Shown here piece after piece: positions 5,043-32,745 of a stretch of DNA of 37,113 nucleotides. Each line of letters begins with the position of its first letter. Position 1 is the stretch's first letter. The DNA comes from Planctomycetia bacterium. GTDB lineage: Bacteria; Planctomycetota; Phycisphaerae; Phycisphaerales; SM1A02. The notes beneath the pieces were generated by a model. That model worked only from the letters and a program-made list of their open reading frames with translations. It was not told the origin of the DNA and did no database searches. The translations under genes and the position numbers were made by a program. The stretch lies in NCBI GenBank assembly GCA_005790565.1, contig SXUJ01000046.1:1-37113 (forward strand), read 5' to 3'.

Positions 5043-5426
5043 TCACTCAGCGCGGGGATTCCGCGCCCAAATGGAGGCGACCGCGAGGACCCAGCTCGGG
5101 AAGATCCCCACAAAGGGAATCGCCTCAGCCACGGTTGCGAACAGGAGTTCGACGCGGAAGCCAAGAATAGCGAAGAGGACAAAACCAACGCATAGGTCAA
5201 AGACGATCACGCCAAGCTCGCCAAATGGAACGCCAAGCGTATCCGCGAACGATGCGACGCCGAGCGCAAGCACGAGTCGCAACATGGACAACCCCGCGGC
5301 GTTCGCGACTGACGCGGTGACTGGAGTTGGAGGCGGTGGCGGTGGCGGAGGACTCGGGTCGGCAATTGCAGCTGGCGGAGGCGAGATCTCTATCGAGTTT
5401 TCGTCAGGTTGGTTCGTTTCAGCCAT
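5043..5426 (-). CDS. Small Pro-rich membrane protein, unknown function
   Basis: I do not recognise a family. The start at 5426 is chosen because GGAGG lies 5 nt upstream (minus-strand ggaggcgaaATG) and because the frame further upstream looks non-coding. The 127-residue product begins with an acidic, Pro-rich cytoplasmic-looking segment carrying eight consecutive prolines near residues 25-32 (a GGTGGC-like repeat in the DNA at about 5331-5350). Two to three hydrophobic segments follow, including LMLRLVLALGVA-like and VIVFDLCVGFVLFAILG-like stretches. The polyproline run would be expected to need EF-P for smooth translation. It heads an operon with asnB (36 bp gap). Convincing as a gene from its ribosome binding site and spacing, not from homology. 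Confidence 0.6.
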   Translation of the reverse strand: MAETNQPDENSIEISPPPAAIADPSPPPPPPPPTPVTASVANAAGLSMLRLVLALGVASFADTLGVPFGELGVIVFDLCVGFVLFAILGFRVELLFATVAEAIPFVGIFPSWVLAVASIWARNPRAE

Positions 5427-5462
5427 TTCGCCTCCAAGAAAACTCCGCGCGGCGGATCGACC

Positions 5463-5474
5463 ACTGCATGCAGT
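5463..5474. promoter_or_regulatory. Perfect 12-bp palindrome ACTGCATGCAGT
   Basis: The palindrome lies in the 126-bp gap between the asnB operon and the divergent methyltransferase gene. It is downstream of the TATCCT box proposed for the asnB operon, so it would sit in that operon's leader or serve as an operator. A dyad of this length suggests a dimeric protein site, but no regulator can be named. Confidence 0.3.
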
Positions 5475-5501
5475 TCGATTCGCCATCTATACCTAGGATG
5501 C

Positions 5502-5507
5502 AGGATA
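5502..5507 (-). promoter_or_regulatory. Putative -10 box TATCCT of the small membrane protein-asnB operon
   Basis: On the minus strand this TANNCT hexamer would give a leader of about 70 nt that carries the GGAGG site before the ATG at 5426. It is an example of the motif at a gene that does have a leader and a Shine-Dalgarno. Confidence 0.3.
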
Positions 5508-5539
5508 CCGACCGACAGCGCGGCGCGGTGTTGTCCTGC

Positions 5540-5545
5540 TACGCT
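5540..5545 (+). promoter_or_regulatory. Putative -10 box TACGCT of the methyltransferase gene
   Basis: TACGCT ends 7 nt before the ATG at 5553, with no Shine-Dalgarno in the intervening gcgccat. It fits the leaderless TANNCT pattern. Confidence 0.45.
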
Positions 5546-5552
5546 GCGCCAT

Positions 5553-6728
5553 ATGTCGAGTGCTCCCGTTGTTGAAGATCCCGCCGAGTCCAAGGGACTC
5601 GATGAGTCGCTACGGTTTGGATTCGGACGAAACTGGTCGGAGTTTATTGATCAGCACTTTTCAGAGTCGCGCGTCGACTCGAGTCGTGAGCACCTGCTCA
5701 CGGCTCTTCGCCTGAAGTCCCTCGCGGGGCTCTCCTTTCTCGACATTGGTTGCGGGAGCGGGCTGCATTCACTCGCCGCACTGCGCTCGGGTGCCGCCAG
5801 TGTCGTGAGCTTTGACTACGACGCCAACGCGGTTGCGACGAGCCTCAAGGTTCGGGAAATGGCGGCGGCCAATGACGCGCGCTGGAGCGTTGAGCGAGGG
5901 TCCGTACTCGATGCCGCGCGAATGCACGCGCTTCCGAAGTTCGACATTGTGTACTCCTGGGGCGTGCTTCATCACACGGGCGAACTCTGGACCGCGATGG
6001 ACAACGCCATTATTCCTCGCAAACCCGACAGCGTCGTCTACCTCGCGTTGTATTCGAGCGATCAGTATGTCGAGCCTCCCACGGGCGAATGGGTGAAAGT
6101 GAAGCGCGAGTACAACCAACGCGGCGCGCTGGGAAAACGAATCATGGAGTGGAAGCACGCTCTCGGGCTCTTCCGCGGTGGCTGGCGACAGAAAGAGTGG
6201 CCGTGGGAGGTTGTCCGAAAGTACAACACCCGCGGCATGGACTTCTGGACGGACATCAAGGATTGGCTCGGCGGTTGGCCGATCGAGTTTGCGTCCTACG
6301 CGGAAGTCGAAGCGTGGGGGAAGCGTCACGGACTGACCATTGTGAATGCCATCCTCGGTGAAGGGTGCACGGAATACATACTCGCAGACCCTCGACACAA
6401 CCAACAATGGGCGGCCGAAGAGGCGCGCCGACTCGCGTCTCGCAAGTCGCTTCCCACCCCATTCGTGCAGCGTGATGGCTTGTCGTGGTCCGCGCAACTA
6501 CCCGAACTCGTTGGCCAATGCGACCAGTGCTTGCCACCGCGCGGTTCGCGACTGATGCTGTACGACGGCGATCGGCCGATTGGATTGACCCACTTCATGC
6601 ACGCGCACATCGTGCAGTACGGAAACGGTCGGTTTGCACATTGGCAGGACTATGTGCTGTTCTCGACGACCGACGGGCGTGATCCCAACGCAAACGCGGG
6701 TCGCTACTCGTACATCGCAGACTACTAA
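5553..6728 (+). CDS. SAM-dependent methyltransferase in a glycan cluster
   Basis: This is a class I methyltransferase using S-adenosylmethionine. The SAM-binding motif I is FLDIGCGSGLHSLAAL near residue 65, followed by an acidic SFDYD segment (motif II), a GSVLDAARM segment and DIVYSWGVLHHTGELW (motif IV region), as in UbiE/UbiG-like and many glycan methyltransferases. The frame is open further upstream, but I place the start at 5553 because the upstream part looks non-coding and a TACGCT box lies 7 nt before this ATG. The last third (about residues 290-391), with conserved-looking Trp and Cys residues (QCDQC, HWQDYVLFSTTDG), is not part of the methyltransferase core and may bind the acceptor. 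The Wzt-like gene follows after 17 bp, so the two are probably cotranscribed and the acceptor is probably a saccharide. Acceptor inferred only from context. Confidence 0.8.
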   Translation: MSSAPVVEDPAESKGLDESLRFGFGRNWSEFIDQHFSESRVDSSREHLLTALRLKSLAGLSFLDIGCGSGLHSLAALRSGAASVVSFDYDANAVATSLKVREMAAANDARWSVERGSVLDAARMHALPKFDIVYSWGVLHHTGELWTAMDNAIIPRKPDSVVYLALYSSDQYVEPPTGEWVKVKREYNQRGALGKRIMEWKHALGLFRGGWRQKEWPWEVVRKYNTRGMDFWTDIKDWLGGWPIEFASYAEVEAWGKRHGLTIVNAILGEGCTEYILADPRHNQQWAAEEARRLASRKSLPTPFVQRDGLSWSAQLPELVGQCDQCLPPRGSRLMLYDGDRPIGLTHFMHAHIVQYGNGRFAHWQDYVLFSTTDGRDPNANAGRYSYIADY

Positions 6729-6745
6729 GGCGAGAGAAGGTCGAC

Positions 6746-8020
6746 ATGCAACTCGAGCGTCCCGCACTTCGCATTTCAAATGTCTCGAAGCAGTTCGAGA
6801 TCTTTGCGTCGCCCGCGCAGATGCTGCTCGAACTCATGGGCTTTGGAAAGCGCCACGAAAAGTTTTCCGCGCTCACGGAGATCAGCCTCGACATCTCGCG
6901 CGGCGAAGTGGTTGGCGTCATCGGGCGCAACGGTGCTGGGAAGTCGACCCTACTCAAAGTGATCGCCGGCACGCTCGCAGCCGATCAAGGAACCGTCGAA
7001 GTCGACGGCAGAATCTCCGCAATTCTCGAACTCGGCACGGGATTTCATCCAGACTACACCGGGCGCGAAAACATCATCATGGGCGGTCTGTGCCTCGGAA
7101 TGTCGCGCAAGGAGATCCTCGCCAAGCAGGACGAGGTCGCCGCGTTTAGCGAACTTGGCGAGTTCATCGATCGGCCATTCCGAACCTACTCAAGCGGCAT
7201 GCAGGCGCGCCTGTGCTTCTCCACCGCCCTTGCATGCGAACCGACCATTCTCATCATCGATGAGGCGCTCGCCGTAGGCGATGTGCGATTTCAACGCAAA
7301 TGCTTTGCGCACTTTGAAGCACTCCGCGCGCGCGGCACGACCATCCTGCTCGTCTCGCACGAAATGAATGCTGTGGCGCAATTCTGCGATCGAGCAGTTT
7401 GGCTTGAGCGCGGGCGTGTCCTCGCGACGGGAAGTGCGAAGGAAGTGTCGGAGAGTTACCTTCGCGCGATGCTCGGTGACGCGACCGCCGCTGCGGCTGC
7501 GAGTGCCGCCCCCGCGCCAAGTGCACCGAGTCCATCCAAGACGCTCGGCGGCGACATCGCTCCCGAGATGCGCTACGGATCTGGCGCCGCACTGATTGAG
7601 CATGTCGAAATTGTGGGAAGCGACGGGAACGCGGTGCAGATGCTTGTGCCCAATAGGGCATATTCGATTCGCGCGAGTGTGCGTGCGGTGCAACCGATCG
7701 AAGATCTCCATGTCGGATTCTCCATTCGCACGGTCCGCGGTGTCGAGGTGTTCTCCATCAACCCCCGCCCTCAACAGGTCTCCCCTGTGCCGCTCGCGCC
7801 ACACGAGCGCGTCACTGCGGAGGTCGCCTTCACGAATCACCTCGCGCCCGGCGATTACTTCCTCACCGTCGGGGCGTGGGGACTGCAAGCGGATGCCCAC
7901 TTTGATCGCCGTGTCGATGTGCTGCAGATTCGAGTGACCGGCGATATCGGCGCACTCCCTCAATCACTGGTCAATCTCGACGCGAAGTACCGTTTTCAAC
8001 CGGTTCTCTCGGCGACCTGA
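6746..8020 (+). CDS. ABC transporter ATPase of the Wzt type (polysaccharide export)
   Basis: This is the predicted ATP-hydrolysing subunit of a polysaccharide exporter. The nucleotide-binding domain (about residues 1-235) has the Walker A GRNGAGKST at 60-68, the signature YSSGMQARL, Walker B LIIDEALAVGD and an H-loop LVSHE. An Ala/Pro-rich linker (about 245-270) leads to a C-terminal beta-sandwich domain (about 275-420) like the O-antigen-binding domain of Wzt, with SIRASVRAVQ and HLAPGDYFLTVG. In Escherichia coli O8/O9a that domain recognises the finished, capped glycan. A GAGAAGG ribosome site precedes the start. The partner permease (Wzm) is not in the window. The preceding methyltransferase is reminiscent of systems in which a methylated chain end is recognised by Wzt, but that link is inference. 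Confidence 0.9.
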   Translation: MQLERPALRISNVSKQFEIFASPAQMLLELMGFGKRHEKFSALTEISLDISRGEVVGVIGRNGAGKSTLLKVIAGTLAADQGTVEVDGRISAILELGTGFHPDYTGRENIIMGGLCLGMSRKEILAKQDEVAAFSELGEFIDRPFRTYSSGMQARLCFSTALACEPTILIIDEALAVGDVRFQRKCFAHFEALRARGTTILLVSHEMNAVAQFCDRAVWLERGRVLATGSAKEVSESYLRAMLGDATAAAAASAAPAPSAPSPSKTLGGDIAPEMRYGSGAALIEHVEIVGSDGNAVQMLVPNRAYSIRASVRAVQPIEDLHVGFSIRTVRGVEVFSINPRPQQVSPVPLAPHERVTAEVAFTNHLAPGDYFLTVGAWGLQADAHFDRRVDVLQIRVTGDIGALPQSLVNLDAKYRFQPVLSAT

Positions 8021-8026
8021 CTGAGG

Positions 8027-10684
8027 CTAGGCCGAGTGGTAGAGCGCGTTTGTTAGGCGCACCATCCGTTCAAGATCGAATCGCTCAAGCGCGAATGCGC
8101 GCGCGGCCTGAGAGAACCTCTTTCGAAGCGCGTCATCGGAGCAGAGCCGCGCCAAACTCGATGCCATGCCATCGACATCCTCGCATTCGTGCAAGAAGCC
8201 TGTCTCTCCGTCAAGAAATGTCTCGCGTGCCCCACCTGCGTCACTCGAAACAACCGGGCAGCCAAGGAACTGTGCTTCCATCAGGACATTGGGGAATCCC
8301 TCCACGCGCGAGCAGAGGAGCGTGGCATTCGCCGCTGCGTACATCGTCGAGACATCCGTGCGGCGGCCAAGCAGTGTGAATGAGTCGCGGATGTCCTCGG
8401 TTGCTCGCTCCATCTCTTCGCGCATCGGGCCATCGCCGCTGATGACTATGCGCGCGTTGGGAACGCGACGAAGCAACCGCCTCGCGATTTCGATGAACTG
8501 ATGCGGCCGTTTCTCTTCGACGAGTCGAAAGGCGCCCACAAGGAGTGGTCGACCGGTCGCGCGGAGCTCCGCGCGCAGGCGCGCGACACATCCCGGGTCG
8601 GTGTCGGTGAACTGCGCGGGATCGACCCCGTTGTTGATCACCGCGATGCGCGATGCGTCGATCCCAATCCAACGCGCGTAATCTCGCGCACCGTGCTCTG
8701 AATTCGCCACAAATCGCACGCGCGGACTTGTCGACAGGGCTTGATACCACGAGTGCATCCAGTCGCCATACCACGCGGGAAAGTTTGGCGGAGAAACCGA
8801 CCGCAGCGAAAACACCACGCGATCGATCCCGAGTGCAAGGGCGGCGATGCCAGCGAGAACGTTGCTGTGATCGAGCCAGGTGTGCACGACATGCGCGCGT
8901 GTCGAGAGAATCGCGGAAATGAACGCGATCGGTTCAGGCCCGAGTTCTGGCGGAATGGCGCAGAGCCGTGCGCGCAACCGATGATCCGTGCGTAGTCTCT
9001 CGAGTGCCAGCGCTGTGGAAGGACCCGCCAACGCGCGAACATCCACTCCCGCTTCCGCGAGAAGGGGGCGGAAAAAAGCCCCAGGCCCGACCGCCGGATG
9101 AAAGGTCACGACCGTGTGGGAGGCAAGCCTACGCGTATGCGCCACCGAGGCGTAGGTCGCGAGTTGGCGTTCCGCCCCGCCGGGAGTCAGGCACCCGATT
9201 ACATGCACGACTCGGGGGCGCTTCGGAATCGCCACCCGCGTGCACCCTCGCGGCGCCTCAAGCAGCGGCAACGCGTCCATCGCGGGGCGCGTCACTCGGA
9301 CGCACTTTTCATACGGCACAACCCTCTCATAGCACTCGAGCGACCTGCTCACCATCGTCTCGAGCGCGAAGTTGCGCTCGACAAACTTCTGTGCTCGTGC
9401 CGACATCCGAGCGCGCATTGGTCGATTGGCGAGCAATTGGATCGTTCGAGATGCGAGCCCCTCCGCATCGCCGATGGGCAACAGAAAGCCGGTCAGCTCA
9501 TCGAGCACTGCGTCAACCGTCCCGCCGCCTGCAGTAGCGACCACCGGACAGCCAAGCGCCTGCGCTTCAAGCAGCGCATTCGGCGTGCCCTCCCTGCGTG
9601 AAGTGTGCATCACGACATCGGCGATTGACAGCAACGCGGCCACATCGTCGCGCCTGCCGAGCAATCGAAAGCGCGAGGGGTCCATCGATTGTGCATGCTT
9701 CTCCACCTCCCCTCGCATAGGCCCATCCCCCGCAAGCAGCACGCACGAATCGGGCATTCTGCTGAGCACAATCCTCGCCGCGCGGACAAAGTCGAGAGGT
9801 TCCTTCTCCTCAGAGAGGCGAAAGACGCCGAGCACCAAGCGTTTCCCATCCACCTGCAGGTCGCGGCGCAGTTGCGCGCTCTGCGCTTGGTTTGGGATAT
9901 CCATCACACTCTTGTCGATCCCGTTCGGAATCACCGAAAAGCGAGAGAGTTTGACACCAGCCCAGTGGGAGTAGTCCGCTGCTCCAACGCGAGAGTTTGC
10001 GAGGAATTGAACTCGAGCACAAGCCGCGAGTTTTCGATACCACGCGAGGAGGTACGGTGAGTAGAGGTTTGGGAAATTGGAGGGATTGACATTCCGAACG
10101 GACAGCACAATGTTCGGGACACCCGAGATCAGCGCCGCAATCCCACTCCAAACATTCGCGTGATCAAGCCACGCATGCACCACATCCGGCTGCAGTCGTC
10201 GAAACTCGCACGCGAGTTCTGTGACATACGCTTGGTATCGCGGATCAACCAATCCAAGTCGACGCTGGAAATCGTGGTCGATGCAAAGTGCATCGCGGGT
10301 CTGCTCGTCGCAAGTCTCCCCAGCGACCTCCACTGTGACGCCTCCCGCTTGGGCGAGTGGGAGATAGTGCGCGGCGCTGCCCGTGAGTGGATTCGTCAGG
10401 AGGATTCTCGCTTCGATACCGCCCCGTCGCAGAGACTCTCGCGCGAGGTAGACGAGTTGGCGTTCGGCTCCTCCCGGACCGAGACTCCCGATGACATGCA
10501 CAACGCGAGCCCGTGAGCGATTTGGAGTTGCGCATGGTTGCAACGCGAGGAGTTCCCGCGCCAAATCATCCTCTTCTTCGCCTCTCACTGATGCAACTCG
10601 CACTGTGGCCTCCTCGCGGCGAGAAGACTCGATTGCCCCGCGAAGAAAACGCAGTCGCTGAAATTCGCTCGTGTAACAACCCAT
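8027..10684 (-). CDS. Tandem fusion of two GT4 glycosyltransferases
   Basis: Two complete GT-B fold, GT4-family glycosyltransferases lie in one 885-residue chain, predicted to transfer sugars from nucleotide-sugars onto a growing glycan at the cytoplasmic face of the membrane. Copy 1 (about residues 61-470) and copy 2 (about 492-885) each start with VVHVIGxLxPGGAERQL, share a WLDHxNVxxGIAAL block and a PPNFP-like block, have the donor-loop GDGPMR(G/E)E and end with the EGxPNxLxEAQxLGCPVV motif, whose two Glu contact the donor. The similarity between halves suggests internal duplication with fusion, not joining of unrelated enzymes. An Arg/Glu-rich stretch of about 55 residues precedes copy 1. 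It lies 102 bp downstream of the hybrid kinase gene on the same strand and converges on the Wzt-like gene with a 6-bp gap. Confidence 0.92.
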   Translation of the reverse strand: MGCYTSEFQRLRFLRGAIESSRREEATVRVASVRGEEEDDLARELLALQPCATPNRSRARVVHVIGSLGPGGAERQLVYLARESLRRGGIEARILLTNPLTGSAAHYLPLAQAGGVTVEVAGETCDEQTRDALCIDHDFQRRLGLVDPRYQAYVTELACEFRRLQPDVVHAWLDHANVWSGIAALISGVPNIVLSVRNVNPSNFPNLYSPYLLAWYRKLAACARVQFLANSRVGAADYSHWAGVKLSRFSVIPNGIDKSVMDIPNQAQSAQLRRDLQVDGKRLVLGVFRLSEEKEPLDFVRAARIVLSRMPDSCVLLAGDGPMRGEVEKHAQSMDPSRFRLLGRRDDVAALLSIADVVMHTSRREGTPNALLEAQALGCPVVATAGGGTVDAVLDELTGFLLPIGDAEGLASRTIQLLANRPMRARMSARAQKFVERNFALETMVSRSLECYERVVPYEKCVRVTRPAMDALPLLEAPRGCTRVAIPKRPRVVHVIGCLTPGGAERQLATYASVAHTRRLASHTVVTFHPAVGPGAFFRPLLAEAGVDVRALAGPSTALALERLRTDHRLRARLCAIPPELGPEPIAFISAILSTRAHVVHTWLDHSNVLAGIAALALGIDRVVFSLRSVSPPNFPAWYGDWMHSWYQALSTSPRVRFVANSEHGARDYARWIGIDASRIAVINNGVDPAQFTDTDPGCVARLRAELRATGRPLLVGAFRLVEEKRPHQFIEIARRLLRRVPNARIVISGDGPMREEMERATEDIRDSFTLLGRRTDVSTMYAAANATLLCSRVEGFPNVLMEAQFLGCPVVSSDAGGARETFLDGETGFLHECEDVDGMASSLARLCSDDALRKRFSQAARAFALERFDLERMVRLTNALYHSA

Positions 10685-25373: not shown

Positions 25374-26930
25374 ATGGCCGACGCAGCACCTTCTTCAGAT
25401 TCAGCTTCCACCCCAAAGAAGATGGAAGACATCGTCGCGCTCTGCCGACGGCGAGGATTCATTTTCCAATCCTCCGAAATCTACGGCGGCATCAACGGCT
25501 TTTGGGACTACGGCCCGCTCGGTACGTCGCTCAAGCGCAATCTCAAGAACGCCTGGTGGAACGATGTTGTCGAGCGCGAACTGATTGGCCCAGATGGCAC
25601 TGCGATCGACATCGTGGGACTTGATTCCACCATCATCATGAATCCGAAGACATGGGTCGCATCGGGGCATGTTGGCGGCTTCAACGACCCGATGGTGGAT
25701 TGCAAAGAGAGCAAGTCGCGATATCGAGCCGATCACCTCGTCGTGCTCGGCTCCATGGCGGAGGGAGCACGCCTCTACGCGGTGGTGCAAGGTGATGAAG
25801 GGCAACTCGCCACCGCCACCAAGGCCTTGGCGCGATACGAGAAGCGCGACGCACTCGACCCCGCAGTGCATCTCCTTCGCTCGTTTCCCGTCCTGACAGC
25901 AGAAGAACGTGCGCGCACGATGGGGCCGCACGCCAAAGAAGTCGGCACCCTCACGGAGCCGCGCCAATTCAATCTGATGTTCGAAACGCATTGCGGCGCG
26001 ATTCGCGACGAAAACTCACTCGCGTACCTTCGTCCCGAAACCGCGCAGGGAATCTTTGCGAACTTCTGGAATGTCTGCGACTCGACCCGCGTGCGAGTTC
26101 CCTTCGGCATCGCGCAGATCGGGAAGGCGTTTCGCAATGAAGTGACGCCACGGAACTTCACCTTCCGAAGCCGGGAGTTTGAACAGATGGAGATTGAATT
26201 CTTCATCCGACCAGAGAGCGCGAACGAGTGGTACAAGTGGTGGCGCGACTGGCGCTTCGCCTGGTGGCAGAAGATCGGACTCAAAGGCGAGAATCTAATC
26301 CTGCGTGAGCACGACCGCGATGAGTTGGCGCACTACGCGAAAGTGGGCGCGGGCACGAGTGATATTGAGTATCGCTTCCCATTCACCGCTCCCGGTTACG
26401 GCGAACTCGAAGGCATCGCGCATCGGGCGGACTTTGACCTCAAGGCGCACGCGACACACTGTGGCAAGGGCGACAAGATGCGCTACTTCGATCAAGAGAA
26501 GAATGAGCGCTACTTCCCCCATGTCATCGAGCCTTCCGCGGGCGCGGATCGCGGAGCGCTCGCGCTCCTCTGCGAGGCATACACCGCCGATGCTTCGCGG
26601 GCGTCGGGAGTGTTCATGAGATTCGATCCACGCATCGCGCCCGTGAAGGCTGGCGTCTTTCCACTCGTGAACAAGGATGGGCTTCCGGAGATTGCGGAGC
26701 GAGTCTTCCGCGAACTGCGCAAGAGCCACTCGGTGGAGTTTGACGAGAAACAATCCATCGGCAAGCGGTATGCGCGAATGGATGAAGCAGGAACACCATT
26801 CTGCATCACGATCGATCACGAGGGCGCGGCGGACGGGACCGCGACCGTGCGACATCGCGACACGCAAGCGCAGGAGCGTGTCTCCCTCGATCAAATCTCA
26901 CGATTCGTTGCCGAGCGCGTTGGCGGTTAG
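25374..26930 (+). CDS. glyS: Glycyl-tRNA synthetase, dimeric (eukaryote/archaea-like) type
   Basis: The class II enzyme charges tRNA-Gly in the cytoplasm. The 518-residue single-chain type is recognised from RRRGFIFQSSEIYGGINGFWDYGPLG (motif 1 region), NDPMVDCKESKSRYRADH, RPETAQGIFANFWNV, GIAQIGKAFRNEVTPRNFTFRSREFEQMEIEFF (motif 2 region with its Arg), GYGELEGIAHRADFDL, EPSAGADRGALALLCEAYT (motif 3), and an anticodon-binding domain near the C-terminus (FPLVNKDG, GKRYARMDEAGTPFCITID, VRHRDT). It is not the bacterial alpha2beta2 type. The first 17 residues are a low-complexity Ala/Ser/Pro lead, so MEDIVAL could be the true start. Its stop overlaps the stop of the convergent peptidase fusion gene by 4 bp. 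Confidence 0.96.
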   Translation: MADAAPSSDSASTPKKMEDIVALCRRRGFIFQSSEIYGGINGFWDYGPLGTSLKRNLKNAWWNDVVERELIGPDGTAIDIVGLDSTIIMNPKTWVASGHVGGFNDPMVDCKESKSRYRADHLVVLGSMAEGARLYAVVQGDEGQLATATKALARYEKRDALDPAVHLLRSFPVLTAEERARTMGPHAKEVGTLTEPRQFNLMFETHCGAIRDENSLAYLRPETAQGIFANFWNVCDSTRVRVPFGIAQIGKAFRNEVTPRNFTFRSREFEQMEIEFFIRPESANEWYKWWRDWRFAWWQKIGLKGENLILREHDRDELAHYAKVGAGTSDIEYRFPFTAPGYGELEGIAHRADFDLKAHATHCGKGDKMRYFDQEKNERYFPHVIEPSAGADRGALALLCEAYTADASRASGVFMRFDPRIAPVKAGVFPLVNKDGLPEIAERVFRELRKSHSVEFDEKQSIGKRYARMDEAGTPFCITIDHEGAADGTATVRHRDTQAQERVSLDQISRFVAERVGG

Positions 26931-29383
26931 TCCACGCAAACGCCAGTGCAGAGGTCGTTTCCGAACGCAGTCCAATCGTCGAGCGTCCACACGACGCGCT
27001 TACCGCGCGTGACCTCGATCATTTGCGGTTGGCCTTGCCCCGCGTGTGTGTTCCCAAAGACAATGTTGCCGTTGGGCATGACTTGCAGCGTGGTTACCCA
27101 GCAGAGATGAATCGGCTGTCCATCCGGCCGGCGCAACTCATCCCGCTCAATCGACCACACGGTTTCCTTCTTCGCGTTTACTTCGAAGACGCGATTGTTG
27201 TTTCCTCCGGCAATCAAGGTATTCCCGCTCTTCAGCCGAATCGCATTGAAGACGCTCGTGCCGTGCCCGTCGTGACCACCCGTTGCTGGTTGCTCATGGA
27301 GGTCGAGTTTGTACTCCCAGAGGATGACGCCATTCTCGTCGTACTCCCGCACGAGTCCGAGGCCCTCATGACAAACGAGGTAGGTTCCCGCGTCCGTCTT
27401 GCGAACCCGGCGCGTGTCGCGATGCGCGTCTGGGCGTTCGACCGTGAGCGGAACACTCTTCACGATCGCTCCCTGCGCGTTTACCTCGAGAATCCGGAGA
27501 TTTCCCGTCTCGGCGATGAGCGTGTTTCCGTTCGCGAGTCGCTGAAAGGCGTGGATCTCCACGCGCCCTGCGTAAGGCGCAACGGGTGCACTCTTCCACT
27601 CCCAAACGACTTCCTTTGCTGGCGTCACTTCGAAGATTCGATCGGGCGCAGGATGCATCAGCACATTCCCGTTCGCGAGGAGCGCAAGATCATGCGAGTT
27701 GTGTTGACACTCGAACTCCCACGCGATGCTGCCAGAAACCTCACGGATCGCAACTCGCCCCTTGTCCTGGCCGATCACGCGGTGCTCAATGAATCCGTAC
27801 TTGGAGCGGATCTTCGCGAGCGTCCCGTCCGCTTCCATCCCGATGACTTCCTGCGAGATGCGCGCAGCGATCGGTGCGTCATGCTTGCGCAATGCAAACA
27901 CGCTTGGCATCGCCTCGAAGAGGAGCGCTTGGCAGGTCGGATCCCGATTCGCTCGCACGACCGCTGCGCCGTAGTCCATGATGATGGCGTCGAGACTGTC
28001 CTGCGTGAGCGCAGTCACGAGCGCTCCTATCGCGGAAGTGGAGTCGCTGCGGGTTGCCTTCGGTAGTTGCGCCTCCGTCCACTCCTCAAAGACACTGCGC
28101 CCCGTGGTAAAGATTCGTGCTCCGTCAAGCGTCGCCCTCGTCCACGGCATTCCCGACTTGATGAGTGCGCCAATGCCGTCCCCACGAAGATACGGAGTCG
28201 TGCACGCAAACTCCGCGCTTCGCGCCTCGAACCCAAAGAATCCATCGGCGATCACATCGATCTCGCCGTTCTGCAAGGCGACCTCCTCGTCGGCGGTTGC
28301 CACGAACTTGAATTCAACCGTCCATCCGGTGCGCTTCGAGATCTCGGCCCACACTTCCGCGTCAAGACCTCGGTCGCGCTGTCTTCGCGACGACGCATTC
28401 CAGAAGGGCGCGGCCTCGCGAGGCCGCCCCAAGCGCAGCGCACGAGTTTGCGCGTCGAGCGCCCTCGCGTCAATCGGAGCTTTGTCGAAGCGTGGCGCCA
28501 TCTCCTTCGCATAGACACGGACGGCACTTGTCACAAGCGTGGCAACTTTCGCGGCCAATGCACAGTCCGCGAGCGCGGCTTCATCTGTGACCTTGTGATA
28601 ATCCTCATGATCCTCGCAACTAAAGAGCACGGCGGGAATGCCTGCGGCGAGGAAGACCCCCTGATCACTCCGTTGCAACCAATCCGCGTGTGTATCGACA
28701 ACCATCGGCAATTGCGCATCCGCCGCAAGGCGCGTCAACAAATCGACGAGCACTTTCCCGGTCGGTCCACCGTCGAGGCGGATCGCACCATCCGCCGCGC
28801 GCGAAATCATGTCCATGTTGAAAACTGCGCGAATACGCGCGAGTGGGAGAATCTCCTCCTCAACAAATGCAGTGCTTCCGACGAGCCCCGCTTCCTCACC
28901 CGTGAATGCAACAAACACGACGCCGACATCGAGCGCGTCCTTCTGCATCGCCTCGGCCACCGCAATCATGCCGCACACTCCACTGGCGTTGTCATCCGCG
29001 CCGTTATAGATCCGGTCCCCCCCGCTCTTGGCATTCGGCAAGTGGTCGTAGTGCGCCGTCACAAGAATGAACTCGTTCGTTGCGGTGCTCGAGGTGACGC
29101 GCGGCGGAAACCACGCGGCAACATTGGGGCTCGCGTCCGGAATGCGCGCGACCGGAATCAGCATCGTGTCGCGACCGGCGAGAGGCTTTGCGCCAGCGGC
29201 GGTAAACTTCGCTGCCACCCAAGCAGCGGCGCGCTTGCCGTCCTCACTGCGAAACGACCGACCGTTCATTTCGTCGCTTGCGAGCTCGGCGAGGTCTGCA
29301 CAGATACGCGCAGAGTCGGGCGGCGTCGCCAGCGCTGACGATGGGGAGAGAAAGAGAGCCGCGCACGCAAGAAACTGCAGCAT
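26927..29383 (-). CDS. Exported fusion: M28 zinc peptidase, family 3 solute-binding domain, beta-propeller
   Basis: An 818-residue single frame with a signal peptide (MLQFLACAALFLSPSSALA). Domain 1 (about 20-295) is an M28 aminopeptidase with an apparently complete zinc centre: His111 in AHYDHL, Asp130/131 in GADDNASG, catalytic Glu163 and ligand Glu164 in GEEAG, Asp191 in NMDM, His263 in DYH. Domain 2 (about 318-535) is a periplasmic amino-acid-binding (SBP_bac_3) domain: APFWNASS, GLDAEVWAEISKRTG, ALQNGEIDVIAD, LDAIIMDYGAAV, DGTLAKIRSKYGF. Domain 3 (about 540-818) is a beta-propeller of PQQ/arylsulfotransferase-like repeats (LANGNTLIAE, LKSGNTLIAGG, MPNGNIVFGN, with RIxEV and VVWEW strands). 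The joins contain no frameshift. One reading is peptide cleavage, amino-acid capture and a scaffold in one periplasmic chain. A TATGCT box lies 6 nt before the ATG. I know of no described family with this order. Confidence 0.85.
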   Translation of the reverse strand: MLQFLACAALFLSPSSALATPPDSARICADLAELASDEMNGRSFRSEDGKRAAAWVAAKFTAAGAKPLAGRDTMLIPVARIPDASPNVAAWFPPRVTSSTATNEFILVTAHYDHLPNAKSGGDRIYNGADDNASGVCGMIAVAEAMQKDALDVGVVFVAFTGEEAGLVGSTAFVEEEILPLARIRAVFNMDMISRAADGAIRLDGGPTGKVLVDLLTRLAADAQLPMVVDTHADWLQRSDQGVFLAAGIPAVLFSCEDHEDYHKVTDEAALADCALAAKVATLVTSAVRVYAKEMAPRFDKAPIDARALDAQTRALRLGRPREAAPFWNASSRRQRDRGLDAEVWAEISKRTGWTVEFKFVATADEEVALQNGEIDVIADGFFGFEARSAEFACTTPYLRGDGIGALIKSGMPWTRATLDGARIFTTGRSVFEEWTEAQLPKATRSDSTSAIGALVTALTQDSLDAIIMDYGAAVVRANRDPTCQALLFEAMPSVFALRKHDAPIAARISQEVIGMEADGTLAKIRSKYGFIEHRVIGQDKGRVAIREVSGSIAWEFECQHNSHDLALLANGNVLMHPAPDRIFEVTPAKEVVWEWKSAPVAPYAGRVEIHAFQRLANGNTLIAETGNLRILEVNAQGAIVKSVPLTVERPDAHRDTRRVRKTDAGTYLVCHEGLGLVREYDENGVILWEYKLDLHEQPATGGHDGHGTSVFNAIRLKSGNTLIAGGNNNRVFEVNAKKETVWSIERDELRRPDGQPIHLCWVTTLQVMPNGNIVFGNTHAGQGQPQMIEVTRGKRVVWTLDDWTAFGNDLCTGVCVD

Positions 29384-29436: not shown

Positions 29437-30900
29437 TCACGACTCCACTTCCTTCCAGATTTTGTGCTTGTGCGTTTCCTTCAGAAAGATCGAGCCAATC
29501 ACAAAGGTCAATGCCGCGACCGCCATCGGGTAATAGAGTCCCGCATAGATGTCGCCTGTGGTCGCCACAATTGTGAGTCCGATCAACGGAAGCAACCCGC
29601 CGAAGATTCCGTTTCCGATGTGATAGGGGAGGGAGAGCGCGGTGTAGCGAATCCGTGCGGGAAACGCCTCCACGAGATACGCCGCGATTGGACCATAGAC
29701 CATCGCCACGAAGATGAGTTGCACGAAGATCAGCGCAATCAACAGCCACGCGGAGGGTGTTTCCAAGAGCGCTCCGAGTCCGTGATAGGGCAATACTTCC
29801 AAGGCATTGACAAGCCCGCCGTCCACCATCGACTGTGGAGTCAAACTCACCGCACCCGTAACGGCGTTGCGCGCCGAGACAACGCTTACGACATTCGAGC
29901 CCGCGGCCCACTGCATGCCGTGATAAACCGGAATGTAGAAAAGCACGGCAAGCAAACACCCCGACATCATGATCCGCTTGCGTCCGATGCGATCCGAGAG
30001 ACTTCCGAACAGCACGAACAGTGGCATTCCAAAGATGAGTGCAATCGCGACGATGCAATTCGCGCTCGTCGAATGGACTTTGAGAATGGTCTGCAAGTAG
30101 AAGAGCGCGTAGAACTGCCCCGTGTACCAAACCACGCCTTGACCCGCGGTTGCGCCAAAGAGTGAGATGAGCACGCGCTTGAGGTTTTCCCATTGCGTGA
30201 ACGCCTCCTTCAACGGCGCGCTCGAAGTCATCCCCTTGGACTTGAGGTGCTCCAGAATCGGAGACTCTTTCATTCGCATGCGGATGTAGAGCGAGACGCC
30301 GACGAGGAAAATGGAAATCAGAAACGGAACACGCCAACCCCATGCGCGGAAGGCTTCCGGTCCGAGCATGGCCTGCACCAAGAAGATGACTGCGAGCGAG
30401 ACAAAGAGTCCGAGTGATGCAGTGATCTGAATGAAACTTGTGTAAAAGCCGCGCTTGCTATCTGGCACATGCTCCGCGACATACACGGCGGCGCCACCGT
30501 ATTCCCCGCCGAGCGCAAATCCCTGCGCCACCCGAATCAGCAAGAGCGCGACAGGCGCCGCGTATCCGATGGTCGCAAAGGTCGGAAGCACGCCGACAAT
30601 CGCCGTGGCTCCACCCATCACCACGAGTGTGACGAGGAACGCATACTTGCGACCGACGACATCGCCGATGCGCCCGAAGACGAGTGCGCCAAACGGTCGT
30701 ACGACAAATCCCACGGCGAAGGTTGAGAGATAAGCGATGAGCGCCCAAGTGTCATTGCCGCTCGGGTAGAAGAGCGGCGCGATGATGGTCGCAAGACTTC
30801 CAAAGATGTAGAAGTCGTACCACTCGATCATCGTGCCAACGGACGATGCCGCGATGACCTGCCAAAGACGCGCGCGAGAAATCGTGGATTCAGCGGGCAT
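29437..30900 (-). CDS. MFS transporter, metabolite:H+ symporter (MHS/ProP-like) family
   Basis: This is a twelve-helix inner-membrane carrier likely importing an organic acid or osmolyte with protons. Family marks are GTMIEWYDFYIFG in helix 1, RPFGALVFGRIGDVVGRKYA in loop 2-3, GFALGGEYGGAAVYVAEHVP in helix 4, RVPFLISIFLVGVSLYIRMRMKESP after helix 6, and GSLSDRIGRKRIM in loop 8-9. The ATG at 30900 is preferred over upstream ATGs of the same frame because it starts at a normal family N-terminus and has a TACACT box 8 nt upstream. Product 487 residues. Substrate not determinable: shikimate, citrate, alpha-ketoglutarate and proline/betaine carriers share these motifs. An extra loop (about 310-370, with SNVVSVVSARNAVTGAVSLTPQ) is longer than usual. 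Confidence 0.9.
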   Translation of the reverse strand: MPAESTISRARLWQVIAASSVGTMIEWYDFYIFGSLATIIAPLFYPSGNDTWALIAYLSTFAVGFVVRPFGALVFGRIGDVVGRKYAFLVTLVVMGGATAIVGVLPTFATIGYAAPVALLLIRVAQGFALGGEYGGAAVYVAEHVPDSKRGFYTSFIQITASLGLFVSLAVIFLVQAMLGPEAFRAWGWRVPFLISIFLVGVSLYIRMRMKESPILEHLKSKGMTSSAPLKEAFTQWENLKRVLISLFGATAGQGVVWYTGQFYALFYLQTILKVHSTSANCIVAIALIFGMPLFVLFGSLSDRIGRKRIMMSGCLLAVLFYIPVYHGMQWAAGSNVVSVVSARNAVTGAVSLTPQSMVDGGLVNALEVLPYHGLGALLETPSAWLLIALIFVQLIFVAMVYGPIAAYLVEAFPARIRYTALSLPYHIGNGIFGGLLPLIGLTIVATTGDIYAGLYYPMAVAALTFVIGSIFLKETHKHKIWKEVES

Positions 30901-30908
30901 GCGCGGCG

Positions 30909-30914
30909 AGTGTA
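30909..30914 (-). promoter_or_regulatory. Putative -10 box TACACT of the MFS gene
   Basis: TACACT ends 8 nt before the ATG at 30900 on the minus strand, inside the 75-bp gap after the secreted dockerin-like protein gene. No Shine-Dalgarno is present. Confidence 0.4.
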
Positions 30915-30975
30915 AGGGCATGCCGTGCGATGCTTGAGTGCGCGAAATCATTGGCCGCGCATGCAACACGCCGCC

Positions 30976-32553
30976 TTACGGACAAGGTCCCCAGTTTCCG
31001 AGCAGGCTCGCAAGATCCGAGGCGTCCACGACTCCGTTGCAATCCAGATCGCCAAGACAGGGAGCTGCCACGCACTCGCCCCAGTTTCCGAGAACGACCG
31101 ACAGGTCCGCCGCGGCCACCATGCCGTCACCATCGATGTCCCCAACGCAAGAATCCGCCACTGGAATGAGGACAAACGCGAACCCAGGTTCCCACTCATT
31201 TGGCGCACTGGTCGCGACGATCCAACCACTCGCGTTGACACCGTGCGCTTGTGTGAGATTGAGACCTCTTTCCTCGAGCAATTCGTCAAGCGCGACGCCA
31301 CTCCAGATACCCGTAACCGGCGAGAGTTGCCATCGAACGGCCCGGCGTCGGGACACCGAACCTTGCTCAGATTCCGTGAGTGTCCCGACCGCAGTTTCGA
31401 CCCAATCCGCTGGATTGGCTCTGGCATCCGCAACGCGCGACGCCCCCTGCACCGTGCTCGCTTCGTGTTCCCATCCGCTCGCGACAGGAAGATGCCCAAG
31501 GTAGATCGGGACACTGCCGAGCGAGTGCCATACGGTTGCGTAGTCTTCGCACTGATCACAATTCCCAGAATTGATGTCGCATCCCGCCGGCCAAGGCCCT
31601 CCAAAGGGGTTCAATGATCCACCTTGCGCGTGCCCGTACAAGAGATTCAGCGAGCGTGCGAACACTGCGACACCGCGTGGCGTGTCGAGTTTTCCGCCGC
31701 CACATCTTGACCAGCGCCCATGCGGCACGATTGGGTATGGCTCCCCGCCGTGAAAGATCAACCCCCACTCTGCGTCGAAGCACATCGATTGCGTGAAGTC
31801 CTCGAAGTGGCAGAGATAAGGGGAAGTACAGCGGTACGAGTGGCCAATGCCTGCGGCGTGGAGATTTGACGCACCCGAGAGTAGTTCCGCAGTCGTCGCT
31901 GCGTTCTCGGAGAACTTTGACTGCTCGCTGTCGAGTCGCTGGGCCGAGCCGATCGCGAGTGGAGCGTCGTCCGTCAAGAGGATCCACTTTGTTCCGCGCC
32001 GTGAGAAACTCACACCGCACTCCCAAGGGCATGTTCCAAAAATCGTTCTTCCATCGTCGGCGATAGAAAACGCAGCACTCCTCGTCTCCGAAGCGAGCGT
32101 GGCCGTCCATCCCTCTGCGCCGCGCCATGCCGCGGCCATTGACGCGCTACTTGTGTGGGACACGCCGACATATCCAGCGACGACCGGATCGATACCCTCC
32201 GAAAGATCGCATGAAGTCGTACTCAATCCGTTCGCAGTCAACGGGATCCTGAGCGGGTATGTCACGCCACAAGCATCCGCGGATGGAAACCAAATCATCG
32301 CAAAGGGATTCCCCGCCTCATCCACCGCGTTGCCCGAAACAATTCCCTGATCGTTGATCGCGAACCTTCCCTGTTCCATTCCAAACTCACTGTGGTACGC
32401 CGCCTGTTCAAGCGCCGCGCCCAATTCGACAACTCGATACCGAACTTCTGCAAGTGCTCCGTTTGCGGATGCGAGGGCAGCAGCGCCAACGGTCATCGCT
32501 GTGATCCAATCGCAACGGCAGGAGAAAACAACAATCGGAGTTCGATTAGCCAC
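30976..32553 (-). CDS. Secreted HAF/propeller-like protein with two dockerin-like repeats
   Basis: A GTG start at 32553 with AAGGA 10 nt upstream gives a signal-like N-terminus ending near ALASANGALA-EVRY. The body (about residues 35-455) has repeated short strands of the HAF type (FAINDQGIVSGNAVDEAGNPFAMIW, AFSIADDGRTIFGTCP, GVNASGWIVATSA), typical of extracellular beta-propellers, and many Cys. The C-terminus carries two EF-hand/dockerin-like calcium motifs, GDIDGDGMVAAADLSVVLGNWGEC and GDLDCNGVVDASDLASLLGNWGPC, which in Phycisphaerae end exported proteins and may serve surface sorting or attachment. A longer frame reaches 32745 right after the cvfB stop, but its extra 64 codons do not look like a gene. 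Start uncertain; function unknown, probably cell-surface. Confidence 0.75.
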   Translation of the reverse strand: MANRTPIVVFSCRCDWITAMTVGAAALASANGALAEVRYRVVELGAALEQAAYHSEFGMEQGRFAINDQGIVSGNAVDEAGNPFAMIWFPSADACGVTYPLRIPLTANGLSTTSCDLSEGIDPVVAGYVGVSHTSSASMAAAWRGAEGWTATLASETRSAAFSIADDGRTIFGTCPWECGVSFSRRGTKWILLTDDAPLAIGSAQRLDSEQSKFSENAATTAELLSGASNLHAAGIGHSYRCTSPYLCHFEDFTQSMCFDAEWGLIFHGGEPYPIVPHGRWSRCGGGKLDTPRGVAVFARSLNLLYGHAQGGSLNPFGGPWPAGCDINSGNCDQCEDYATVWHSLGSVPIYLGHLPVASGWEHEASTVQGASRVADARANPADWVETAVGTLTESEQGSVSRRRAVRWQLSPVTGIWSGVALDELLEERGLNLTQAHGVNASGWIVATSAPNEWEPGFAFVLIPVADSCVGDIDGDGMVAAADLSVVLGNWGECVAAPCLGDLDCNGVVDASDLASLLGNWGPCP

Positions 32554-32745
32554 GCGAGACCATCCTTCTTGATTGGAATCTGAGAGCAGAAGTTTTGAGT
32601 CGCCAACTCTGAAGTTTGCGCGCGTCCTTGCGGCGCCGGACTCGACACGGCTGTCACTGTCGCGACTTGGGGCCAGAGCGCAAGTGAAAAGTTCCTGTAT
32701 TGACGAGAATTCATCTCGTCGCGCGTGTCGCACGCGCACAACCAT
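32554..32745. other. Intergenic gap between cvfB-like gene and secreted protein gene
   Basis: The 192-bp gap is open in the minus-strand frame of the secreted protein, but reads as low-quality coding sequence. I see no TANNCT box near the GTG start. A ribosome site AAGGA is at 32564-32568. Promoter position unknown; read-through from the cvfB-like gene is possible. Confidence 0.3.

Follow-up and report, generated by a model that had tools for sequence, protein, structure and literature searches.

The stretch of DNA analysed here (the window: 37,113 nucleotides, contig SXUJ01000046.1 of the Planctomycetia bacterium assembly GCA_005790565.1) carries on its minus strand an open reading frame (ORF, 26927-29383) that runs from an ATG to a stop codon (26927-26929) with no internal stops and encodes a protein of 818 amino acids (26930..29383). 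A first-pass annotation, made from the sequence alone, had described a single uninterrupted exported frame joining an M28 aminopeptidase, a family-3 solute-binding protein (SBP) domain and a beta-propeller. We confirmed this observation, and the interpretation attached to it was partly supported. Pfam analysis identified all three domains above their curated cut-offs: Peptidase_M28 at residues 100-285 (E = 1.1e-34, 120.3 bits versus a cut-off of 21.3), SBP_bac_3 at residues 319-529 (E = 3.1e-16, 59.8 bits versus 26.4) and the Mala_s_1-like propeller (PF22701) at residues 586-778 (E = 2.3e-11, 44.2 bits versus 27.5). No NCBIfam model scored above its own cut-off on the protein. The architecture is three known families combined in one chain.

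The N-terminus resembles a Sec signal peptide by inspection (residues ~1-20, 29324..29383), and the protein is apparently exported, in keeping with the first-pass annotation. Pfam, alignment and structure matches placed the M28 zinc aminopeptidase domain at residues 21-300 (28484..29323) and the SBP domain, a Venus flytrap, at residues 309-540 (27764..28459), while Pfam, fold and alignment placed the six-bladed propeller at residues 536-818 (26930..27778), all on the minus strand; as rounded, approximate spans we use 20-300, 310-535 and 536-818. Over the same three segments, phmmer against PDB sequences returned, in turn, aminopeptidases, binding proteins for amino acids and 3no2, a propeller. 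An AlphaFold2 model of the whole chain, built with 17 family members as input, had a mean predicted local distance difference test score (pLDDT) of 78.6 and a predicted template modelling score (pTM) of 0.63, with individual domains mostly good and their relative placement not confident. VIA-align of this model, taken part by part (Foldseek was also run), matched the peptidase to LapB (Z 27.4) and 1amp (Z 26.7), the SBP domain to 5eyf (Z 22.2) and the propeller to 3no2 (Z 28.6).

Distribution and descent of the fusion

The fusion was found in several other Planctomycetota genomes, which the first-pass annotation had named as support. The whole three-domain frame lies on one contig in ten genomes (the window's own, G003 (L033), G001, G241, G351 (L034), G078, G106 (L035), G185, G089 and G339 (L037)), and in three more (G331, G179 and G194) contig ends break the chain, though not at the join between SBP and propeller. 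These 13 genomes, with all three domains in one chain, belong to a single family, within which they fall into two genera: g1, to which the window belongs, and g52. Another genome, G002, has all three domains in a frame that is interrupted in the SBP part. Because the same domain order recurs in independent assemblies, the fusion is neither a chance product nor a false join. A false fusion through assembly or sequencing error was rejected, as the joins recur in this way and each part is under purifying selection; nor was it the case that the orthologues are always separate genes.

In four members (G285, G209, G061 and L038) the M28-SBP chain is followed by a stop codon and the propeller is not in the chain. 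The orthologous propeller of G285 is a separate frame of 352 amino acids on another contig. There were no propeller-profile matches at E ≤ 1e-25 in G061 (97% complete) or G209 (88% complete), and an obligate partnership of propeller and peptidase was rejected on that account. A separate propeller in L038 cannot be judged, because its contig ends ~200 bp past the stop.

The named members are uncultured metagenome-assembled genomes, mostly of Planctomycetota. We surveyed overlapping samples of the order, class and phylum, scoring at most two candidates per genome and taking matches at E ≤ 1e-45 or 1e-85; 80 related stretches, the top-ranking ones among at least 593, were compared. Among 400 genomes of the order, M28-SBP chains occurred only in g1 and g52. 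A search of 301 genomes with the SBP profile gave strong matches (E ≤ 8e-40) in these two genera only and weak ones (E 1e-12 to 1e-19) in other genera. The genus g25 encodes a related M28 protein alone (46-54% identity) and a propeller alone (65-72%), with both in G270, G329 and G391, and some of its propellers start with a lipobox-like sequence by inspection. No g25 genome was among the 22 SBP-profile hits, G027 being the sole g25 genome named as searched. Beyond these genera, samples drawn from the class (397 genomes) and the phylum (392 genomes) at E ≤ 1e-85 yielded propeller-only matches, with 53-57% identity and frames of 335-582 amino acids. Across the samples searched, the M28-SBP-propeller architecture was confined to two genera within a single planctomycete family. 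A literature search of open-licence papers returned none on an M28 peptidase with both a solute-binding domain and a beta-propeller, on an aminopeptidase fusion with a solute-binding domain in Planctomycetes, or on an M28 aminopeptidase joined to a periplasmic binding protein; the main text of PMC6461901, which names the metagenome-assembled genome of L034, does not contain the terms 'aminopeptidase', 'solute-binding' or 'propeller'. Partial matches were found in 28 plasmid records, none covering 80% of the query.

Phylogenetic trees were built without duplicate records of one genome and without matches that covered fewer than ~200 query residues or contained stops. The main alignment omits L006 (interrupted frame) and L039 and L145 (contigs ending inside M28), and L134 was dropped from another alignment. 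In the M28 tree, made from the 45 closest rows out of 108 (42 after removal of duplicates), the 16 fused rows formed one clade with support of 100/100. Beside it stand M28 proteins from g25 and g55, which judging by their length have a single domain. Because the M28 parts form one clade, the M28-SBP chain most simply arose once. The fused propellers did not form one group; the starred branches of the propeller tree force at least two changes, and the separate propeller of G285 nests among the fused ones (97/87), so gain or loss of the propeller by the chain has probably happened repeatedly.

Conservation within the three domains

All 17 aligned members, which were selected for having M28 and SBP, matched the Pfam models of these two domains, and 13 of the 17 matched the Mala_s_1-like propeller. 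The first-pass annotation had listed all expected zinc ligands in the peptidase, and we found H111, D131, E163, E164, D191 and H263 unbroken wherever the position was covered (14 to 17 of the 17 rows). With 1amp numbering as the reference, these residues supply the full set of co-catalytic zinc ligands plus the general base (His, Asp, Glu-Glu, Asp, His). We infer that the M28 part acts as a zinc exopeptidase of the aminopeptidase type.

The SBP part gave a different picture when the 17 fusions were aligned with GlnH, HisJ and ArgT of Escherichia coli. The Thr/Ser, Arg and Asp of GlnH and HisJ are, we assume, the residues that hold the alpha-amino acid ligand. Thr or Ser was present at the position of GlnH Thr70/HisJ Ser72 in 3 of the 17, and Phe in the window protein; the Arg75/77 position (R388 in the window) was Arg in 8, with the alignment least certain here as some members have insertions near the Arg; and the Asp157/161 position (D470) was Asp in 16. 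The full clamp was found in none of the 17, the window protein having Phe, Arg and Asp, and the claim of a conventional amino-acid-binding domain was not supported. The aromatic residue at GlnH Phe13 was retained in two fusions. Twenty SBP positions were invariant across all 17, including W328, R333, R334 and R338 (window residue number being the SBP alignment position plus 308). The best fold matches of the domain were binding proteins whose structures contain Arg, Glu or Gln, 5eyf being glutamate-bound.

We also compared substitution rates in nine chosen pairs from ten sequences (45 pairs possible). The synonymous rate (dS) was near saturation in several pairs and one ratio of non-synonymous rate (dN) to dS was undefined, so we relied on comparisons of dN. 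The SBP dN exceeded that of M28 by a factor of 2.2-4.4 in all nine pairs, and that of the propeller by a factor of 1.7-10.8. Purifying selection was seen on all three parts, and the SBP dN/dS of 0.12-0.43 indicates that this part is retained as coding sequence, though fast-changing. We read the fast change as that of a module whose ligand or partner may vary by species, relaxed constraint being the rival reading. L155, L157 and L146, members of one g52 subgroup, have a low-complexity insertion close to the cleft Arg that makes their SBP domains 21-23 residues longer than that of the window protein, and the propellers of the same three are the least similar among the fused ones. In G002 the SBP region contains a 149-nucleotide tandem duplication with 99% identical copies (L006:1410-1707), which may be real or an assembly product. 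Its length is not divisible by three, and the gene's two halves are in different frames.

The HisM/GlnP-type permease profile TIGR01726, positive in 11 of 14 controls, had no match in the window's genome (177 contigs, listed as 100% complete), which lowered the standing of an ABC-receptor role for the SBP part. The only other SBP_bac_3 match in this genome is an ORF of 386 amino acids (L114:1372-2532, contig C13) with a GYGD channel-filter-like motif, which we name by this motif a GluR0-like receptor channel, another use of an SBP outside transport.

M28 rows predominated among the VIA-align matches of the full-length model, with only a few propeller rows, so the propeller was folded alone (pLDDT 92.5). 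Its nearest neighbour was 3no2 (Z 29.4 over 256 residues), followed by the sulfotransferase Cpz4 (Z 22.6); arylsulfate sulfotransferase (ASST) scored Z 20.9, level with NHL and designed propellers (Z 19-21). Five His residues (H564, H611, H654, H672 and H780) were kept in 19 of 19 close propellers, 14 fused and five separate, and in 7-8 of eight distant ones, and they could mark an active or metal site. The profile scores point both ways on membership of the ASST group: the window protein reached 21.1 bits with PF14269 (Arylsulfotran_2) against a cut-off of 27 and gave no row for PF05935 (Arylsulfotrans), while the separate relatives L148 and L151 scored above the cut-off (34.4 and 37.1 bits), and a PF14269 match at E ≤ 0.001 was found in 12 of the 17 members. 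In single hhalign comparisons the propeller aligned to five ASST-like proteins of related genomes (five of six loci taken) at E = 2e-18 with slips in blade register, and to two ASST-like sequences at E = 1.2e-9. The catalytic His of E. coli ASST is His436, according to PMC13426309, and it cannot be mapped onto the propeller because the repeats let the profile alignment slip its blade register.

Neighbouring genes

An MFS transporter gene (29437..30969, minus strand) lies 53 bp upstream of the fusion, as first described. Its best NCBIfam model was the metabolite/H+ symporter TIGR00883, at 354.6 bits below the cut-off of 443.45. The MFS gene is directly upstream in four of four g1 genomes, with gaps of 53 (window), 54 (L033) and ~21 bases (L005 and L006); it was seen only in this genus, the window's gene having no match at the g52 loci examined. 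From downstream, a class II tRNA synthetase gene (25374..26930, plus strand), presumably glycyl, converges on the fusion in the four g1 genomes; in the window the two overlap by 4 bases where the fusion ORF ends. A promoter and terminator scan found signals no commoner than in shuffled sequence.

An S46 dipeptidyl peptidase scored above the cut-off in seven of 13 g52 genomes (G089, G185, G194, G241, G331, G339 and G351). After each of the seven S46 genes the next gene on the same strand starts with a fusion-type M28, and the fusion was traced further in six; in L155 the S46 gene (5237-7447) is directly upstream of the fusion. The contig ends after S46-M28 in G194 and G331, and the contig of G351 includes just the last part of S46. 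No S46 above the cut-off was found in the two-domain genomes G285, G061 and G209, and in G395 (g25) S46 is on a different contig from the propeller. S46 as a fixed partner was not supported, since it is missing from g1 and from several g52 genomes. In G089, G331 and G339 an asparagine-synthase-like gene, recognised by inspection, lies on the opposite strand before S46.

A second, diverged propeller gene is located directly downstream of the fusion in seven g52 genomes (G241, G351, G078, G106, G185, G089 and G331; examples are L139:5943-7028 and L140:3229-4254) and was not found there in G339, G194 and G179. This paralogue kept only H654, the other four His being absent in seven of seven. The genomic context of the stand-alone propellers, where gene calling is incomplete, gave no clear clue. 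Elsewhere in the window, an ORF of 589 amino acids (30979-32745, minus strand) had no Pfam hit at E ≤ 0.001 and contains two C-terminal dockerin-like calcium motifs by eye; L033 has a copy, 59% identical, close to its fusion gene. In addition, a single frame of 885 amino acids (8030-10684, minus strand) has two stretches matching glycosyltransferase domains (PF00534).

Possible functions and known systems

The first-pass annotation had offered two ideas, a one-chain device that releases, captures and presents amino acids, or a peptidase regulated by amino-acid binding. The second, a regulated peptidase responding to a ligand, seems the better. We tentatively propose, with somewhat less than even confidence, an exported exopeptidase controlled, or perhaps supplied, by a repurposed Venus-flytrap domain, with the propeller as an accessory. 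An M28-type zinc exopeptidase would trim short peptides outside the cytoplasm; the attached flytrap, no longer a transporter receptor, would close on a small ligand (a peptide product, an amino-acid derivative, or another small acid or amine), and its closure would alter access to, or activity of, the adjoining M28 active site, in the way that MltF is switched by its SBP module. The six-bladed propeller would serve for binding, positioning or a second activity; it can be encoded apart from the chain or be lacking altogether. Export, catalytic activity, ligand gating, ligand identity and the propeller's role are all inferred here. The points that we count for a gated exopeptidase are the intact M28 residues, the M28 folds, the single clade and an SBP dN above that of M28 and propeller in all nine chosen pairs with dN/dS still at 0.12-0.43, together with the missing TIGR01726 permease, the GluR0-like ORF, the S46-M28 adjacency and the MltF precedent.

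Several observations weigh against this proposal. The placement of the domains relative to one another in the model was not confident (pTM 0.63), and the pLDDT fell below 50 in the M28 site loops and in SBP residues 327-334. Both the Arg and the Asp are lost in the SBP domain of L140 and, because the pocket residues differ among orthologues, one ligand common to all of them is unlikely. The rapid change of the SBP domain would fit a spacer or a capture module too, and the interrupted SBP frame of G002 could reflect relaxed constraint. Furthermore, no S46 above the cut-off was found in the four g1 genomes or in the fused G078, G106 and G179.

The SBP part might instead bind substrate or product and raise its local concentration for M28 or for the adjacent uptake system, with no allostery. 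The nearest folds are binders of Arg, Glu or Gln, the Asp470 position is kept in 16 of 17 and the Arg388 position in 8 of 17, and genes for an MFS carrier or S46 adjoin the fusion in all four g1 genomes and in part of g52, respectively; however, the canonical clamp is complete in no member, the TIGR01726 permease was not found and the window's MFS gene has no match at the g52 loci examined. We regard such capture as unlikely, and favour flytrap control over the holding of substrate or product. The earlier suggestion that captured amino acids are handed over is weak (no complete clamp, fast SBP dN, no HisM/GlnP-type permease found). It is unlikely that the propeller generally serves to present them, because G061 and G209 have no propeller match at E ≤ 1e-25 and G285 encodes its propeller separately.

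It is also possible, although doubtful, that the SBP domain no longer binds a ligand and acts as a linker or interaction surface, with peptidase and propeller as the working parts. This would accord with the SBP dN exceeding that of M28 in all nine chosen pairs, with the variable ligand positions (both key residues gone in L140), with the frame interruption in G002 and with the insertion in L155, L157 and L146. It is opposed by a dN/dS of at most 0.43, by the 20 invariant positions, R333, R334, R338 and W328 among them, and by the retention of the SBP in four chains that lack the propeller. A more specific history, in which the flytrap of an uncultured planctomycete lineage would have been recruited once from an amino-acid receptor to gate an exported M28 aminopeptidase, its cleft being retuned between species while enzyme and propeller hardly change, and the propeller being a mobile third module that enters and leaves the chain, is one we likewise hold to be rather improbable as a whole. 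Least probable is a bifunctional exoenzyme whose propeller is itself an ASST- or lyase-like enzyme with a His-lined centre, for which the five conserved His (four of them absent from the paralogue), the neighbours Cpz4 and ASST and the profile match to ASST-like proteins speak, and against which stand the nearest structure, 3no2, being of unknown function, NHL and designed propellers scoring as high as ASST, and the slipping blade register that leaves the ASST catalytic His unmapped.

If the flytrap does control the enzyme, the protein would be a self-contained peptidase reading its chemical surroundings. The natural variants, with the propeller fused, separate or absent and the canonical Arg present or absent, make the roles of the domains directly testable.

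We compared the fusion protein with the known systems that it resembles. The M28 aminopeptidases (Aeromonas/Vibrio aminopeptidase 1amp, Legionella LapA and LapB, and Bacillus subtilis BSAP) share its fold (Z 26-27) and the same six catalytic and zinc residues; none of these is known to have an SBP domain or a propeller attached. Family-3 amino-acid binding proteins (GlnH, HisJ and ArgT, and the PDB entries 6det, 5eyf and 4zv1) share the fold, the Asp position and, in 8 of 17 fusions, the Arg position, whereas here the SBP is fused to an enzyme, the clamp is incomplete in 17 of 17 and no TIGR01726 permease was found. The six-bladed fold of the propeller is common to BACCAC_01654 (3no2), Mala_s_1-like and ASST-type propellers, but the function of 3no2 is unknown and the profile alignment with it clearly shares only one of the five His, H654. 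GluR0-type receptor channels likewise use SBP_bac_3 outside transport, as a sensor, but in a channel rather than an enzyme.

The closest parallel is the lytic transglycosylase MltF. When muropeptides bind to its N-terminal domain, Pseudomonas aeruginosa MltF is switched (PMC10746161), and our domain check of E. coli MltF found SBP_bac_3 and SLT in one chain. Each of the two proteins is an enzyme outside the cytoplasm (for the fusion, apparently so) whose single chain also includes a family-3 SBP domain. They differ in that the catalytic domain of the fusion is M28 and N-terminal, whereas that of MltF is SLT and C-terminal, in that the fusion has an extra propeller, and in that gating is known for MltF and is only proposed here by analogy. 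The fusion protein is not a member of the MltF family, because it has no SLT domain (no Pfam hit at E ≤ 1); its mode of action may nevertheless be like that of MltF, and if so it would stand beside MltF as another transporter-type receptor turned into an on-board enzyme switch.

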